NCBI RefSeq assembly: GCF_029233945.1
Contig: NZ_JARGOQ010000012.1
Span: forward strand, 1-64,000
Origin: Sneathiella sp.
GTDB taxonomy: Bacteria; Pseudomonadota; Alphaproteobacteria; Sneathiellales; Sneathiellaceae
Direction of reading: 5' to 3'
Length of the DNA: 64,000 bases
Shown here one piece after another: positions 55,712 to 64,000 of the stretch. Position numbers and translations under genes: made by a program. The notes under the pieces are model-generated. The model made no database searches and was not told the origin of the DNA. It saw only the letters and a program-made list of their open reading frames with translations. Numbering within the stretch: the stretch's first letter is position 1; each line of letters starts with the position of its first letter.

Positions 55712-56221
55712 TTACGGCATCGGCCCGAAGGTCCGGTGGGTGATCTTCGGCGGGCCTTCTTCATAAATCTGCATGATGGCAATCTCGCCATATTTGTCGG
55801 GTTGGCGGTCGCGGCCGCCGAGCTGCCCGTAGATGCTCTGCAGGTTATCCGTATTGCCGACCCACATCACCGCCTTGCCGGGATTTTCCGTGATCAGCCG
55901 TTCGGCGACATTGCTGACATCGATCACTTTGAGCTCGATCCCGCGCTGTTCGATCAATGGCATCACTGTATCAATATTGCGCTTCTTGTCGGGGCTGTAG
56001 ATCACGTCGATATCTAGATCAGCGACGGCGGCGGGCAAGGCCTCAGCGCGGGCGATGCCCTTTTCATTGAGGTCGGTCGCAAAGGGGATGCGGTCTGCGT
56101 GACGCAGGAGAATGACAGTCGTTGTCGTGCCGGGTGGGGAGTTGACCGTGCTGCAGGCCGCGAGCAGTCCGAAACTGACGGCGATCAGGCCGAGAGTGAC
56201 AATCCTGCGTCCGATGCTCAT
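55712..56221 (-). CDS. histidine phosphatase-like lipoprotein
   Basis: Lipobox LLAAC at N-terminus; VILLRHADRIPFATDLNEKGIARAEALP. Confidence 0.8.
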   Translation of the reverse strand: MSIGRRIVTLGLIAVSFGLLAACSTVNSPPGTTTTVILLRHADRIPFATDLNEKGIARAEALPAAVADLDIDVIYSPDKKRNIDTVMPLIEQRGIELKVIDVSNVAERLITENPGKAVMWVGNTDNLQSIYGQLGGRDRQPDKYGEIAIMQIYEEGPPKITHRTFGPMP

Positions 56222-56243
56222 GACGTCCCCCTTCAACTTAATT

Positions 56244-57140
56244 CTAACCGAGACTATAATCCGAGGTCTCCGAGGGTGTTCCCTCGGCCTTGATCTCCCC
56301 CTCATTCACCATATGCAGGATATGTGCATAGACCGAGCGGGCGGCGGCGGGATGCAGGTTCTCAGGCACATCCGTATACATTCTTTTCACCATGTCGGGG
56401 ATGGCCATGGGGCCGGAACTCAGGCATTTGCGGATCTGGTCCATGCGTTCCTGCCGGTGGGCGATCAGGGCCTCGACAAAGGGCTTTGTCTCCGTAATCG
56501 CGGGGCCGTGGGTCGGCCAGTAGGTGTCATAGTCAAAGCCGAGCAGCTTATCGAGGCTTTGCATATACTCGCTCATATTGCCGTCGGGCGGGGAGACGAC
56601 CGTGGTCGACCAGCCCATCACATGATCGCCGGTAAAGAGGGTGTTTTCTTCGCGCAAACCAAAGCACACATGATTTGAAAGATGCCCCGGCGTATGGACG
56701 ACATCGACGGTCCAGCCGTTGCCGAGGATGACATCGTTATCTTCGAGCTCGATGTCGGGCACGAATGCCATGTCGCCGCCTTCTTCCAAGCCTGATTCGA
56801 GCTTGCCGCCGCCATGGGGCCCAAAGCCGTAGGTCTTCGCGCCGGTCAGCTGCTTCAAGGGTTCAGCGGCGGGAGAATGGTCGCGGTGGGTATGGGTAAT
56901 CAGGATGTGGGTGACCATCTCCCCCTTCAGCGCCGTCATCAGGGCGCCGACATGTGCCCCATCCAGCGGGCCCGGATCAATAACCGCGACCTCGCCACGC
57001 CCGATGATATAGGTGCCGGTGCCGTGAAAGGTGAAGGCGCTCGGGTTTTTGGCGACTACCCGGCGAATCAGCGGGCTGAGATCCTCCGCCACGCCATATT
57101 CAAACTCCAAGTCTCTTCTGAACGGGACTTTAACTGCCAT
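56244..57140 (-). CDS. MBL-fold metallo-hydrolase (LACTB2-like)
   Basis: ILITHTHRDHSPAAEPLKQLTG (HxHxDH), HTPGHLSNHVCFGLREENTLFTGDHVMGW. Confidence 0.93.
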   Translation of the reverse strand: MAVKVPFRRDLEFEYGVAEDLSPLIRRVVAKNPSAFTFHGTGTYIIGRGEVAVIDPGPLDGAHVGALMTALKGEMVTHILITHTHRDHSPAAEPLKQLTGAKTYGFGPHGGGKLESGLEEGGDMAFVPDIELEDNDVILGNGWTVDVVHTPGHLSNHVCFGLREENTLFTGDHVMGWSTTVVSPPDGNMSEYMQSLDKLLGFDYDTYWPTHGPAITETKPFVEALIAHRQERMDQIRKCLSSGPMAIPDMVKRMYTDVPENLHPAAARSVYAHILHMVNEGEIKAEGTPSETSDYSLG

Positions 57141-57220
57141 GATCTTGCTTTCCGGTTTTCAGCAATTGTACTGATAAGAACCGGAGCAGCAACAGGAAGT
57201 TTCATCAAATGCCGGAGAAT

Positions 57221-57697
57221 TTAAGCCCGGCTGGAAAAATTCGCCAACCCGAAGGAAGAAATCGACGGTTTCGAGAGGTTCGGAATTCTCGAGAAAACGA
57301 AGTTTTTCGCTTCGTCCATGCAGATCGTTGACGTTAACTGCAAATCGATATCTTTCGTGTCGGCTACCGCATGGGACAGTTGAACAATGCTGCGATATCC
57401 GGCTTCATTAGTAACGGAAGCTGCTACCACGCGCGTTATGCCCGCTTTGATAAAAATATCACCAAATATAAGCATATCGTCGTACGAGATTTCGTCCTCA
57501 TAGCCGGCGCGATTATCAAAGATAGCAAAGAAATTGGAGGAGGGATTGGTTTTGAGTGTCTTCCGATAGACCGGTATGCGGTGCTCGCGGCTGACCGGTC
57601 CCAATGCTGTCATGAAATTGATATACTCTCCGCCGTATTCCCGTGTTTCATAGCTGATATTGGCGAATGCTCCTGAGGAGACTTTATGTCCTTGCAT
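57221..57697 (-). CDS. unknown-function tandem paralog 1 of 3 (possible STAS/SpoIIAA-like fold)
   Basis: MQGHKVSSGAFANISYETREYGGEYINFM...FFAIFDNRAGYEDEISYDDM; aligns over its length to the next two ORFs. Confidence 0.85.
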   Translation of the reverse strand: MQGHKVSSGAFANISYETREYGGEYINFMTALGPVSREHRIPVYRKTLKTNPSSNFFAIFDNRAGYEDEISYDDMLIFGDIFIKAGITRVVAASVTNEAGYRSIVQLSHAVADTKDIDLQLTSTICMDEAKNFVFSRIPNLSKPSISSFGLANFSSRA

Positions 57698-57977
57698 CTC
57701 GTTTCTCGCATTAAATAATGATCTCCAAATTAATACAGACAGTTACTAATACTTTGTGAACGAGTTATCACATAATTCAGATTAATGTAATATCATAAAT
57801 TCTAAATAATTAATTTTAATATTCATATACTATGTATACTATTACTTATTTATACTAAATATTTCTTACATATCTAAGAATCTAAGAGAATAAATACTTG
57901 ATTTCATGAGTGAATGAAGATCGACCAGGCGGCATCGACGTACTTGAACATGTCTGGAATGTCCGGAGTCAGGGTAA

Positions 57978-58415
57978 TCATCCGACGCGCGCGAGGGTCT
58001 CGATCCGCGACAGAATGAAGTTTTCCGCATCCGTCATATTCTCTGAAAATTCCGTATGTGATTCCAGGGTTTTGACTTTGGCAACCGCGCGGGCCAGCTT
58101 GAGGATATTGTCATACCCAAATTCCCTAGTGATGATGGCGCCGTGAATCCGTTTAATGCCGGCATCCAAAAGAATGTCAGCAACGATCTGCATATCATCA
58201 TAGGAGAAGTTATCTTCATGGCCGCGGCGGTTGTCGAGAATAACGAAATAATCCGCAGACGGATTATTCTCAAGCGTCTGGTAGTAAAAGGGGATGCGGT
58301 GTTCACGGTTGATCGGTCCCATCACTTTCATGATGTGGATATGCTCGCCGTTATACTCCCGGGTTTCATAGTCAATGTTGGCAAATGACCCCGAGGAGAT
58401 CTTGCGTCCTTTCAT
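57978..58415 (-). CDS. unknown-function tandem paralog 2 of 3
   Basis: MKGRKISSGSFANIDYETREYNGEHIHIM...YFVILDNRRGHEDNFSYDDM; ATG 58415 preceded by GGAAA (alternative start 58436). Confidence 0.85.
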   Translation of the reverse strand: MKGRKISSGSFANIDYETREYNGEHIHIMKVMGPINREHRIPFYYQTLENNPSADYFVILDNRRGHEDNFSYDDMQIVADILLDAGIKRIHGAIITREFGYDNILKLARAVAKVKTLESHTEFSENMTDAENFILSRIETLARVG

Positions 58416-58717
58416 CACAGTTTCCAAATTAGTCAATGTTCAGTCGTCTCAGGATAAATAGGCAATCACCCGGCAGCTATTCCCGCCCGGAGAATGCCGT
58501 GTTTGAGCGATTAATTATGGAAAAAATAGTTACTAGCTATCAGATGATTTCCGTTAATATAACATTCTGGGCGGGTTTCAAATTTTCTGGAAAGCGTCTT
58601 TCAAATTCCATCACACCCAAGGGCATATGCCCGACAATGTCGGTCGGGACAGCAAGCCCGCAGACATATAGTAGACGCTCTTAATATACAATAGGTTTTT
58701 TTAAGAAATAAAACGGG

Positions 58718-59155
58718 CTAGTTTTCTTTTACGCACTCATCCATCCGTAGGAGAACAAATTTCTCCGCTGTCGCGAAATCGGGGCTCGAAATCGCCTCAA
58801 CCTCCAAATCCTTCGTTATTGAGATTGCCTTGATCAGCTTGATGATTTTATCATAGCCAGGATCTTTGGTGACGACAGCATAAATGAAGCGATTGATGCC
58901 ATGTGAGACGAGCATGTCGCCGAAATTGGACATGTCCGCCATGGAAAGAAGGCTCTCCTTGCCTTTGCGATTATCCAGAATGCAAAAATAGTTGCCTGAT
59001 TTGGTCAGGGCTAATGTCTTTTCATAAACCGGCACACGGTCTTCCTTGTCCAGTGAGCCGCTCTGCGTCACGACATGCAGGAACTCTCCCCCGCATTCCT
59101 TCGTTTCATACTTGATGTTCGTGAAAGAACCGGACGCTACCTTACGCCATTTCAT
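58718..59155 (-). CDS. unknown-function tandem paralog 3 of 3
   Basis: MKWRKVASGSFTNIKYETKECGGEFLHVV...YFCILDNRKGKESLLSMADM; preceded by AAAGGGT. Confidence 0.85.
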   Translation of the reverse strand: MKWRKVASGSFTNIKYETKECGGEFLHVVTQSGSLDKEDRVPVYEKTLALTKSGNYFCILDNRKGKESLLSMADMSNFGDMLVSHGINRFIYAVVTKDPGYDKIIKLIKAISITKDLEVEAISSPDFATAEKFVLLRMDECVKEN

Positions 59156-59448
59156 GTAATACCCTTTCTACACCCTTCTGACTGCCGCCTCCCTGCAACA
59201 CCGGACAAAACCAAAATATATATGCCGCGATATTAATGGAATTCAAGGGGCGTTTCAAGCATGTCCGCATTCCCCGTTTCGATAAAAGCATGGTTTTTCC
59301 GGGCGAGGATTTCCGATCTTGCACAAAGGGAAGCTTTACGGATTGACCGGGAATTGTTAGGCTTTCGCTCTTGGAATGCCATTCGTTGTTTGGCGGTCAT
59401 TTGGTGACAAACAACCTTCAAGATTGAATCCGGAATAGGGGACGTAAA

Positions 59449-60210
59449 ATGGCTCGGATAGGACAGTTGAAACTATTGGCGACCCTGCTGTGGGCCTTGT
59501 TTCTGGTCCTGCCGTCGGCGGCCCTCGCCGAAGACAAAACCGGCGAATATGACATTGCGATTGATTTGGCGACCATGTTGCAGTCCGCCCGCTCGATTAT
59601 CGGGGAAAACCAGGATCTTATTAATGATCCCACTATCGGCGACAAGGGGCTCACCGCGGAAGTCGTACGGGCGCGGGCGCTTGAAAAATTCACGGTGGCC
59701 AAAGGCGGCACCCAGCCGGACTTATCGGGTGGCGATCTCAGGAGCCGCCTCCTGAAAGCTCAGATTGAGGCAATTTCCAAGGTGATAACCGAGCATCAGG
59801 GCACCATCAACCAGCCCGGTGTCGCCTTCAAAGGTTTTGTGCCGGCGGTTTTTGCCCGTCTGGTGAATGAAGAATTCAAGCAGGCGATGGGCGAAGAGGC
59901 GGAGGTGAAAGTCACCGCGCCGCCGGAACTGATCCGCAACCGCAAGGCCCGCCCCGATGATTGGGAGGTTGAGGCCATTCGCAATGATCTGTCCGCGCCG
60001 GGATGGGAGAAGGGCGCCATCTTCTCCGCTGAGGCGGCTAATCGCGGCCGACCGGCCTTTCGTGTTCTTGTGCCGGAGTATTACGGACAGGGATGTCTCG
60101 CCTGCCATGGGGCACCGAAGGGCGAACTTGATGTGACGGGTTATCCGAAAGAGGGGGGCAATCTCGGCGATCTTGGCGGTGTGATCAGTGTAACGCTGTA
60201 CCGCAACTGA
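59449..60210 (+). CDS. DUF3365/Tll0287-like periplasmic haem-type sensor protein
   Basis: Signal peptide (LFLVLPSAALA); C-terminal FRVLVPEYYGQGCLACHGAPKGELDVTGYPKEGGNLGDLGGVISVTL with CxxCH. Confidence 0.82.
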   Translation: MARIGQLKLLATLLWALFLVLPSAALAEDKTGEYDIAIDLATMLQSARSIIGENQDLINDPTIGDKGLTAEVVRARALEKFTVAKGGTQPDLSGGDLRSRLLKAQIEAISKVITEHQGTINQPGVAFKGFVPAVFARLVNEEFKQAMGEEAEVKVTAPPELIRNRKARPDDWEVEAIRNDLSAPGWEKGAIFSAEAANRGRPAFRVLVPEYYGQGCLACHGAPKGELDVTGYPKEGGNLGDLGGVISVTLYRN

Positions 60211-60238
60211 ACCGGTCGCCCGGAAGGCGGATATCCTG

Positions 60239-62986
60239 ATGAGCAACTTTTCCATTCTCACCCGATTATCGATCCTGAGCGTGGCGCTTCTGGCAATCCT
60301 GATCGGATCGAACCTGTTTCTCGATTACCGCCTGACGCAGAATGCCAAGACAATCGCGAGCGAGGCGGCGCTCGTTGGCCGGATAACCACTGCCAATGCC
60401 GCCAGCAAGTCCTTTGGCGATTTGAAATTCTGGCTCGCCGACCTTGCGGTTAGCCTACTTACCCTGTCAGAGCGCAATGCAGATGCGGCGCTGAAATCCC
60501 TGACGACCAGCCTTGAGGAGTTGAAGGAGTTTGATCCCGAAAGGGTGGCCCTGATCAAACAGGAGCTTGACCTGTTGATGAACGAGGCCCTTCTCGCCGT
60601 TGATGCCTATACGGATGAGCGTCGCGTGATCGGAAATTCCCTGATGGCCAAGGCGCGCGTACATATCCAGACAATCGATGGGCATCTTTCCAGTATTGTG
60701 GATGAACTGGAGGCGGAATCGCGTGTGCGCAGCAGTGCCGGTCTTGCCTCTGCCCGGGATGCGGTCAGCCTCTCTCATATCATTATCATCGTCGGTGCTC
60801 TCATTGGGTTGCTGCTGACGTTCCTCGTGCTTCGCTCAATCCGCACGCCGCTCTCACGGATTGTTACGGCCATGCGGGCCATCACCAAGGGAGACTTGAC
60901 CGCAGAGGTGCCTCCCGCCGGACGCGATGAAATCGGTGAGATGGCCAAAACCCTGTCCCTGTTTCGCGATAGCCTGATCGAACGGGACCGGCTGGCAGCA
61001 GAGTGGGAGGAAGCGCAGGCCGAAGCCCGGAATGCTCAAGAGAAGCTGCTTGTGGCGATTGAGGCGGTGACCGACGCCTTTGCCCTCTATGACACCGAAG
61101 ACCGGCTGGTCATTGCCAACAGCAAATATAGTGAAATGTATGAGTATCTCGGGTTGAGCATCGAAAAGGGCATCCGCTATGAAACGATCATTTCCGCCGC
61201 TGTGGACAAGAAAATGATCGTTGCGGCTCAGGAAAACTCTGATCAATGGCTGAAAGAGCGAATTGAGCGCCACCGCAACCCGACGGGCCCATATGAACAT
61301 TTGCGCGCCGATGGAAAATGGCTCCGGATCAATGAACAGAAAACAGCGGATGGGGGCGTCGTCGGTGTTTTTACTGACATAACGGAGGCCAAGGCACGTG
61401 AGACGGAACTTGGCGAAATGGTGGATCGGCTGGCCGAGGCGCGCGATGTGGCAATGAAGGCGACGCAAACAAAGAGCCAGTTCCTTGCCAATATGAGCCA
61501 TGAACTCAGAACGCCGCTCAATGCCGTGATCGGCATTACAGAGATGCTGGAAGAAGACGCGATCGAGGATGAGGATGAGGATATGATCGAGCCCTTGCAG
61601 CGGATCAGCCGTGCGGGCAAGCATCTTCTCAAGCTGATCAATGATATCCTTGATCTGTCCAAGATCGAGGCCGGCAAGATGGAACTGCATGTGGAAAGCT
61701 TCGATCTTGCTGCCGTTGTCCGGGATTGTGTTGATATGGCCGGGCCGCTCGCCACGCCCAACAATAATACAATCGATGTCAGCCTGCCGGATGATCTGCC
61801 GTCCATGACCTCCGATGTGACGCGGGTCCGGCAGGTTGTCTTCAATCTTCTCAGCAACGCCTGCAAATTTACGGAAAACGGGACAATCGGTATTTCGGTT
61901 AGTCGGGCGGCGGGTGATATTATCAAAATCGATGTTTCCGACACGGGGATTGGTATGTCGCCTGAACAGCTTGAGCGCCTGTTCAGTGATTTCTCTCAGG
62001 CCGACAGCTCGACCACCCGTAAATATGGCGGCACGGGGCTGGGCCTCGCTATCTCGCAGCGCTTCTGCCGCATGATGGGCGGAGATGTCACCGTGGAAAG
62101 CACGCCGGGGACGGGTTCCGTCTTTCGTGTCAGTCTGCCGCGGCAGATTTCATCGGAGGAGGAGAGCGGCCCGATGGAAGGGGCGCTCTCAAGCGCGCCG
62201 ACGGGAGGGGAGCTTGAGGGGAATGTCGTGTTGGTCGTCGATGATGACCCGGTTGCCCGCGATATCCTGCGCCGTTTCCTGGAAGCGGAAGGCTATGACG
62301 TTGCCACTGCCGTCGATGGGGATGAGGGGCTTGAGAAGGCGCGCACCCTTTGTCCCGCCGTAATCACGCTGGATGTGGTGATGCCGGGGAAGGATGGCTG
62401 GACACTGCTCCAGGAACTTAAGGATGATCCGAAGCTTAAGGATATCCCGGTATTGATGGTATCCATCGTCGATGACAAGCATAAGGGCTTTTCGCTTGGC
62501 GTTGCCGACTATATGACCAAGCCGGTCGACCGCAAGCGCCTGTTGACCTTGTTGGAGCGGTACAAACTCAATGGCAATGGCGGCAATGTGCTGATCATCG
62601 AGGATGATGGCTCGACCCGCCAGTTGATGCGTCGGATTTTTGTAAGCGAAGGCTGGCGGGTGCGCGAGGCGGTGAATGGTCGGGCCGGTCTGCAACTCGT
62701 TAAGGACGCCATTCCGGACTTGATCCTGCTCGACCTGATCATGCCGGAAATGGATGGTTTTGAATTTGTTGATTCCCTGAAAGCAGTCCCCGAGGCAAAG
62801 GGGGTACCGGTGGTTGTCATCACCGGGGCAGACCTGTCCGACGACGACCGTAAGCGTCTCAATGGCGGGGTTGAACAGGTTATCAAGAAATCAGCGGACG
62901 GGGCGCCAACGTTCCTCGATGAAGTCCGCCGATATGTGGGTCAACACCTGATTGCTCGTGCCAAAATGTCTGGAGAAGCAAAATGA
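60239..62986 (+). CDS. hybrid sensor histidine kinase (TM-HAMP-PAS-HisKA-HATPase-REC-REC)
   Basis: HAMP LRSIRTPLSRIVTAM; SQFLANMSHELRTPLNAVIG (H box); N, G1, G2 boxes; two REC domains (LDVVMPGKDG, LDLIMPEMDG). Confidence 0.95.
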   Translation: MSNFSILTRLSILSVALLAILIGSNLFLDYRLTQNAKTIASEAALVGRITTANAASKSFGDLKFWLADLAVSLLTLSERNADAALKSLTTSLEELKEFDPERVALIKQELDLLMNEALLAVDAYTDERRVIGNSLMAKARVHIQTIDGHLSSIVDELEAESRVRSSAGLASARDAVSLSHIIIIVGALIGLLLTFLVLRSIRTPLSRIVTAMRAITKGDLTAEVPPAGRDEIGEMAKTLSLFRDSLIERDRLAAEWEEAQAEARNAQEKLLVAIEAVTDAFALYDTEDRLVIANSKYSEMYEYLGLSIEKGIRYETIISAAVDKKMIVAAQENSDQWLKERIERHRNPTGPYEHLRADGKWLRINEQKTADGGVVGVFTDITEAKARETELGEMVDRLAEARDVAMKATQTKSQFLANMSHELRTPLNAVIGITEMLEEDAIEDEDEDMIEPLQRISRAGKHLLKLINDILDLSKIEAGKMELHVESFDLAAVVRDCVDMAGPLATPNNNTIDVSLPDDLPSMTSDVTRVRQVVFNLLSNACKFTENGTIGISVSRAAGDIIKIDVSDTGIGMSPEQLERLFSDFSQADSSTTRKYGGTGLGLAISQRFCRMMGGDVTVESTPGTGSVFRVSLPRQISSEEESGPMEGALSSAPTGGELEGNVVLVVDDDPVARDILRRFLEAEGYDVATAVDGDEGLEKARTLCPAVITLDVVMPGKDGWTLLQELKDDPKLKDIPVLMVSIVDDKHKGFSLGVADYMTKPVDRKRLLTLLERYKLNGNGGNVLIIEDDGSTRQLMRRIFVSEGWRVREAVNGRAGLQLVKDAIPDLILLDLIMPEMDGFEFVDSLKAVPEAKGVPVVVITGADLSDDDRKRLNGGVEQVIKKSADGAPTFLDEVRRYVGQHLIARAKMSGEAK

Positions 62987-63360
62987 CCAAGATCCTCTAT
63001 GTCGAGGACAATGAGGACAATATCTACATGTTGTCCCGCCGCCTGAAGCGCAAAGGGTTCGAGGTCGTCATCGCGAGAGATGGTGCCGCCGGGATCGAGG
63101 CGGCCCATGGCGAGATGCCCGCGCTCATCCTGATGGATTTGAGCCTTCCGAAAATGGACGGCTGGGAGGCGACGCGGCGGCTGAAATCAGATGAGACAAC
63201 GAAAGCCATCCCAATCATCGCCCTGTCGGCCCATGCGCTGGAAGGCGAGCGGGAGAAGGCGCTCGATGCTGGCTGCGATGACTTCGATACCAAACCCGTC
63301 GAATTTTCCCGCCTCATGGGAAAGATTGAAGGATTTCTGGATATGGGAGGGACATCTTGA
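62983..63360 (+). CDS. single-domain response regulator (CheY/DivK-like)
   Basis: ILYVEDNEDNIYMLSRRLKRKGFEV, ALILMDLSLPKMDGWEA; ATGA overlap with kinase gene. Confidence 0.94.
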   Translation: MTKILYVEDNEDNIYMLSRRLKRKGFEVVIARDGAAGIEAAHGEMPALILMDLSLPKMDGWEATRRLKSDETTKAIPIIALSAHALEGEREKALDAGCDDFDTKPVEFSRLMGKIEGFLDMGGTS

Positions 63361-64000
63361 TCCAGGAAGACGCCCGCATTCTGATCGTCGATGATAATGA
63401 GGATAATCGCTTTACCCTGAAGCGGCGGCTTAAAAAGATCGGCTATGGGAATCTGGAAATTGCGGTTCATGGACGCGACGCGCTGGAGAAGATGCAGGCG
63501 CAGCCCTTCGATCTTGTCCTCCTGGATATCATGATGCCGGAAATGGATGGCTATGAGGTGCTGGAAACCGTTAAGCGGGATATGCATCTTCGCCATATCC
63601 CGGTCATTATGATTTCGGCGGCAGACCAGCTTGAAAGTGTCGTAAAATGCATTGAACTCGGGGCGGAGGATTTTCTGCCCAAGCCCTTTAATGCGACCTT
63701 GTTGCGGGCGCGTGTTTCCGCCTCGCTTGAGAAAAAGGCGCTGCGCGATCAGGAGGAGGCCTACCGCGCCCAGATCGTCGCCGAGAAGAAACGCACCGAT
63801 GAGTTGCTGCATGCGATCATTCCGGCCATGGCGGTGCAAGAGCTTAAACAGACCGGGATGGTGCGCCCGCGCAATTACGATGCGGTCGGCATTCTGTTTT
63901 GCGATATCGTCGGCTTTACCGCCTATTGCGACCGTAATCTGCCGGAAACGGTTGTCGCCCATCTTCAGGCGCTGATCGAGGCGTTCGAGCAGATCGTCGA
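63357..64000 (+). CDS. response regulator fused to class III adenylate/guanylate cyclase (3' end outside window)
   Basis: My translation from TTG 63357 (TTGA overlap) stays open to the window edge: IQEDARILIVDDNEDNRFTLKRRLKKIGY...LDIMMPEMDGYEV...YDAVGILFCDIVGFTAYCDRNLPETVVAHLQALIEAFEQIV. Not in the supplied ORF track. Confidence 0.92.
   Translation, partial: MIQEDARILIVDDNEDNRFTLKRRLKKIGYGNLEIAVHGRDALEKMQAQPFDLVLLDIMMPEMDGYEVLETVKRDMHLRHIPVIMISAADQLESVVKCIELGAEDFLPKPFNATLLRARVSASLEKKALRDQEEAYRAQIVAEKKRTDELLHAIIPAMAVQELKQTGMVRPRNYDAVGILFCDIVGFTAYCDRNLPETVVAHLQALIEAFEQIV

Follow-up and report, generated by a model that had tools for sequence, protein, structure and literature searches.

A rare, unnamed protein family of predicted SpoIIAA-like fold encoded by a tandem gene array in Sneathiella

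A tandem array of three diverged paralogs

Three tandem genes of a Sneathiella sp. genome encode proteins that, judging from their sequences and predicted structures, belong to a new, rare and unnamed family of a known fold, the SpoIIAA-like fold, with a plausible role as switches. They were found as minus-strand ORFs in the window, which is the whole stretch of 64,000 nucleotides that was analysed. Paralog A (57221–57697, 158 aa) carries a C-terminal tail of about 13 extra aa, while paralogs B (57978–58415) and C (58718–59155) are both 145 aa long. Their pairwise identities are 51%, 42% and 42% over 142–143 residues without gaps, with BLASTP E-values of 2e-55 to 1e-41, so the likeness is not due to chance. 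The original prediction, made from the letters alone, had described three same-strand tandem ORFs sharing a full-length motif. The ORFs lie where it had placed them, the motif is found in the sequences as it had been written, and the DNRxGxE core is, as claimed, identical in all three paralogs. The count of three paralogs is right for the array and too low for the genome, which holds a fourth, more distant copy on contig 24 (G000:C24:2305–2727, G000 being this genome).

The most probable start codon of paralog B is the ATG at 58415 rather than the TTG at 58436, which would add 7 aa, because the ATG aligns with the starts of its orthologs. Comparison of the array genes with their orthologs gave dN values of 0.11–0.24 and dS values of 0.87–2.1, with third codon positions varying the most. 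Since change is biased towards third positions and dN is far below dS, the sequence comparison identifies the three ORFs as genuine coding genes under purifying selection.

A scan of positions 56000–60500 with Rfam models found no element. Promoter or operator patterns of the EcfG, CtrA, FnrL, LexA and RpoN types were searched for, and none was common to the regions upstream of the array genes, where sigma-70-like sites were barely more frequent than in shuffled controls. A stretch of low GC at 57250–59250 (32–49% per 250 bases) spans the array, in a region of about 56% GC.

Distribution and history of the family

The family was detected in 11 of the 25 genomes of the genus, with one to five copies per genome. 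Outside the genus, it was present in three genomes (G130, G219 and G311) among the 385 alphaproteobacteria sampled, each with two to four closely spaced copies, and a sample of 399 genomes from across the phylum yielded no carriers beyond those already found. A search of the genome collection gave two Sneathiella species and one alphaproteobacterial MAG as named relatives. The family is rare across the sequences sampled. Its members are often arranged in tandem arrays of 2–4, and the copy number per array ranges from 1 to 4 overall. Four tandem members, only one of which has Ser or Thr at position 71, occur in a genome from a different taxonomic family of the class (L048:8796–10935).

The phylogenetic tree separates members from distant genomes, solo-type members and members of the array types. 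The array type of paralog C is the one most widely shared in the genus, with orthologs in five other species (G001, G003, G015, G019 and G022). Orthologs of paralogs A (G003_b and its relatives in the tree) and B (G022_a) were found in a subset of species, which places the growth of the array before the divergence of those species. The copies had been proposed to be old rather than recently duplicated, and this agrees with the tree, in which distinct orthologs of the array genes occur in other species.

The coding sequences of the array have a GC content of 47–48%, against about 56% for the window, and most members of the family in the genus also have less GC than the sequence around them. Such values, together with the patchy distribution, the variable number of copies per array and an integrase gene adjoining the solo copy in G003, could reflect a selfish or accessory cassette devoid of a fixed cellular role and kept by transfer and local duplication. 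However, orthologous subtypes are found at orthologous positions under purifying selection across species, which argues for long vertical maintenance, and searches of plasmids and phages retrieved no family match at the sensitivity used. We, thus, regard a cassette of this kind as improbable. The solo-type copy (L058:2242–2742, on contig 24 of G000, L027 and L062–L065) lies near tRNA-Lys(CTT) in some species and is followed by a truncated-globin gene in some.

Predicted fold and relationship to known families

The family is unnamed, as had been proposed: none of the Pfam, NCBIfam, PHROG and PADLOC models recognises it, and no credible match to a model of a defence system or a phage family was obtained. 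No scanned member matched the Pfam model PF11964 even at E-values up to 1–10, the Sneathiella genome itself contained no PF11964 match, and the family members did not match the Pfam STAS models (PF01740/PF13466). PIN7 and other sub-threshold Pfam and NCBIfam matches (E of about 0.1–0.3) were dismissed as chance. A sequence search of the PDB gave chance-like matches only, among them the homeobox protein NANOG, whose E-value rose from 0.004 with a 3-row profile to 0.05 with a 21-row profile.

AlphaFold models of paralog B (pLDDT 92.8) and of a distant member (pLDDT 92.0) have an identical topology, beta-beta-beta-alpha-beta-alpha-beta-alpha-beta-alpha, in which the last element is a long helix. 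The SpoIIAA-like fold is described as beta1-beta2-alpha1-beta3-alpha2-beta4-alpha3-beta5-alpha4 (PMC2954212), and the predicted structures therefore correspond to the published order plus one extra strand at the N-terminus. When the distant member was compared with the PDB using Foldseek, the two Shewanella SpoIIAA-like proteins 2ook and 2q3l (DUF3478/PF11964) ranked first and second with a probability of 1.00, followed by anti-sigma-factor antagonists (4qtp, 0.93, and usfx-RsfB, 8ih8, 0.80). Paralog B matched usfx-RsfB (8ih8_B) with a probability of 0.99, with SiaC and an SLC26 STAS domain among unrelated weak matches. These Foldseek E-values are individually weak (the best is 3e-3), with TM-scores of about 0.5.

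Profile–profile alignment points to the same relationship. Using hhalign, the family was compared with a profile built from 16 alphaproteobacterial PF11964 proteins collected for this analysis, which gave 78.6% (E 1.7e-5) over about 100 aligned columns, whereas column shuffles and reversals reached at most 0.2% and 16 unrelated families at most 1.3%. PF11964 in turn aligned with STAS_2 at 77.9%, and the direct comparison of the family with canonical STAS_2 gave 0.9%. From these alignments and models, we conclude that the family branches off within the SpoIIAA-like superfamily as a divergent lineage, closest to PF11964 but outside its curated threshold. A STAS/SpoIIAA-like fold had been guessed from the sequence alone, and the confident AlphaFold models, Foldseek and the profile–profile comparison all bear it out. 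The proteins are single-domain and probably cytosolic. What had been called a candidate for an undescribed system is better described, on this evidence, as an undescribed family, one more unnamed family of the SpoIIAA-like fold. To our knowledge, the closest solved members of the SpoIIAA-like group still have no proven function.

The family shares with the PF11964 proteins 2ook and 2q3l the order of strands and helices, the single-domain architecture and a significant profile alignment over nearly the whole domain. It differs from them in its extra N-terminal strand, in a signature of its own (R40, D61-N62, E67, D74 and T96) and in the lack of the Trp-rich lid, with 0.5 Trp per protein compared with 3.2 in a PF11964 domain. 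It belongs to the same fold class as the STAS-domain anti-sigma-factor antagonists SpoIIAA and RsbV (PF01740/PF13466), with Foldseek matches to usfx-RsfB and to a Mycobacterium paratuberculosis antagonist, and resembles them in its conserved beta3-alpha2 loop and in the Ser or Thr that most members have where alpha2 begins. Unlike SpoIIAA/RsbV, it lacks a DSxG-type motif and a significant direct profile match, and neither an RsbW-like kinase nor a sigma-factor gene was found beside the family genes. DUF7793 (PF25056) appears to have a similar fold, since a Marseillevirus member was matched with a probability of 0.97 in a Foldseek search against viral models, but it has no sequence match to the family and is rare in the sampled genomes. 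We considered equating Arg40/Asp74 with the Tyr34/Asp73 pair found in the Shewanella proteins and dropped the idea, as the Arg40 side hinges on gap placement.

A conserved loop as a putative docking site

Conservation was counted over 30 members, 22 of them from the genus. R40, N62, G86 and T96 are present in all 30, D61 in 29, and E67 and D74 in 28. The densest conserved run, DNRxGxE..[ST]xxDM, comprises the beta3-alpha2 loop and the start of alpha2. The loop, which is the most conserved stretch of the family, reads DNRAGYEDEISYDDM in paralog A (57473–57517, minus strand), DNRRGHEDNFSYDDM in paralog B (58191–58235, minus strand) and DNRKGKESLLSMADM in paralog C (58931–58975, minus strand).

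Residue 71 is Ser or Thr in 26 of the 30 members, including all 22 from the genus; four distant copies carry Ala, Gly or Asn instead. It is located at the N-terminus of alpha2, near the phospho-serine site of antagonists; in STAS antagonists, the phosphorylated serine sits in a conserved loop (PMC8256260). The conservation of Ser/Thr71 supports, without proving, a putative phospho-switch. It need not imply phosphorylation, given that S-x-x-[DE] also occurs as a normal helix cap and that the four distant copies deviate.

Our main reading is that the array proteins are interaction switches of SpoIIAA-like fold, to which we assign a probability of about 0.5. Paralogs A, B and C would act as single-domain protein-interaction switches, docking through the beta3-alpha2 loop and the start of alpha2 as anti-sigma-factor antagonists do, with Ser/Thr71 as a possible control site. 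The diverged copies would bind different partners, or a single partner under differing conditions. A natural series of tandem paralogs is available in culturable marine bacteria and, if the proteins do act as switches, the size of the array across species offers a ready comparison.

No RsbW/SpoIIAB-type kinase adjoins the array. A search of the Sneathiella genome with HATPase_c_2 retrieved no stand-alone kinase of the RsbW/SpoIIAB type either, only weak segments inside larger frames, which makes a classical partner-switch set unlikely in this genome. The more ambitious proposal of a new alphaproteobacterial partner-switching circuit, in which a diverged STAS-like array would operate without an RsbW-type kinase, its paralogs would compete for one or more partners, and the size and make-up of the array would tune the response, strikes us as a long shot.

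The kinship with PF11964 also raises the possibility that the array proteins carry or sense small nonpolar ligands between alpha2 and alpha3, perhaps touching the membrane. Their closest relatives by fold and profile, 2ook and 2q3l, belong to the carrier-like Shewanella group, whose members resemble CRAL-TRIO carriers and have been reported in open and closed forms and with a hydrophobic cavity (PMC2954212). An aromatic residue is kept at the start of alpha3 (Y101, in 29 of the 30 members), where PF11964 has a Trp, and the solo copy adjoins the gene of a DUF2254 membrane protein in several species. However, the Trp-rich lid is missing, and the strongest conservation is polar and located in the beta3-alpha2 loop, so that we hold ligand carriage to be a tentative alternative with perhaps a modest chance of being correct.

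Genomic neighbourhood and the adjacent kinase operon

The array is placed head-to-head with a plus-strand operon, headed by the gene of a Tll0287-like sensor protein (59449–60210) and continuing with those of a hybrid histidine kinase with HAMP, PAS_7, HisKA, HATPase_c and two REC domains (60239–62986) and of a single-domain response regulator (62983–63360). The original prediction had suggested this phosphorelay/cyclase operon as a possible partner of the array. The array proteins would then be its dedicated input or output partners, and head-to-head placement was found in G000, G003, G019 and G022. Moreover, Tll0287 orthologs are present in 7 of the 11 family-positive genomes of the genus and in none of the 14 family-negative ones (Fisher p 0.0007, a value that ignores kinship).

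The co-occurrence thus stands in raw counts, but adjacency is not general, being restricted to those four genomes. In G009 and G015 (98% complete), an array-type gene is retained at the same position, close to the gene of the metallo-hydrolase, and the Tll0287 gene was not found, while G001 and G002 carry the operon on a different contig. A PhoD-type gene lies near the array in G001 and G015, whereas in G000 the same gene comes after the signalling block, which therefore looks to have been inserted or lost as a unit between species. Outside the genus, the neighbours of family genes encode, among others, an adenine deaminase and an alkyl-sulfatase-like hydrolase, with no common signalling theme. 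We consider a dedicated partnership unlikely; the sensor, kinase and response regulator are probably unrelated to the array, beside which the operon probably lies by accident. Recognising that the tie between array and kinase operon is not a general, conserved one spares effort on the wrong partner. At 59449–64000 of the window and at L066, the operon combines the Tll0287-like sensor, the hybrid kinase and a REC protein with a REC-adenylate/guanylate cyclase, after which comes a CYTH-CHAD protein.

On the other side of the array, a minus-strand gene at 56244–57140 encodes a hydrolase of metallo-beta-lactamase fold (Lactamase_B and BLACT_WH). It does not belong to the family, and in other species it likewise adjoins the array or lies close to it. 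A metallo-beta-lactamase neighbour is common to two lineages, a sharing that we judged coincidental because the subfamilies and the orientation differ.
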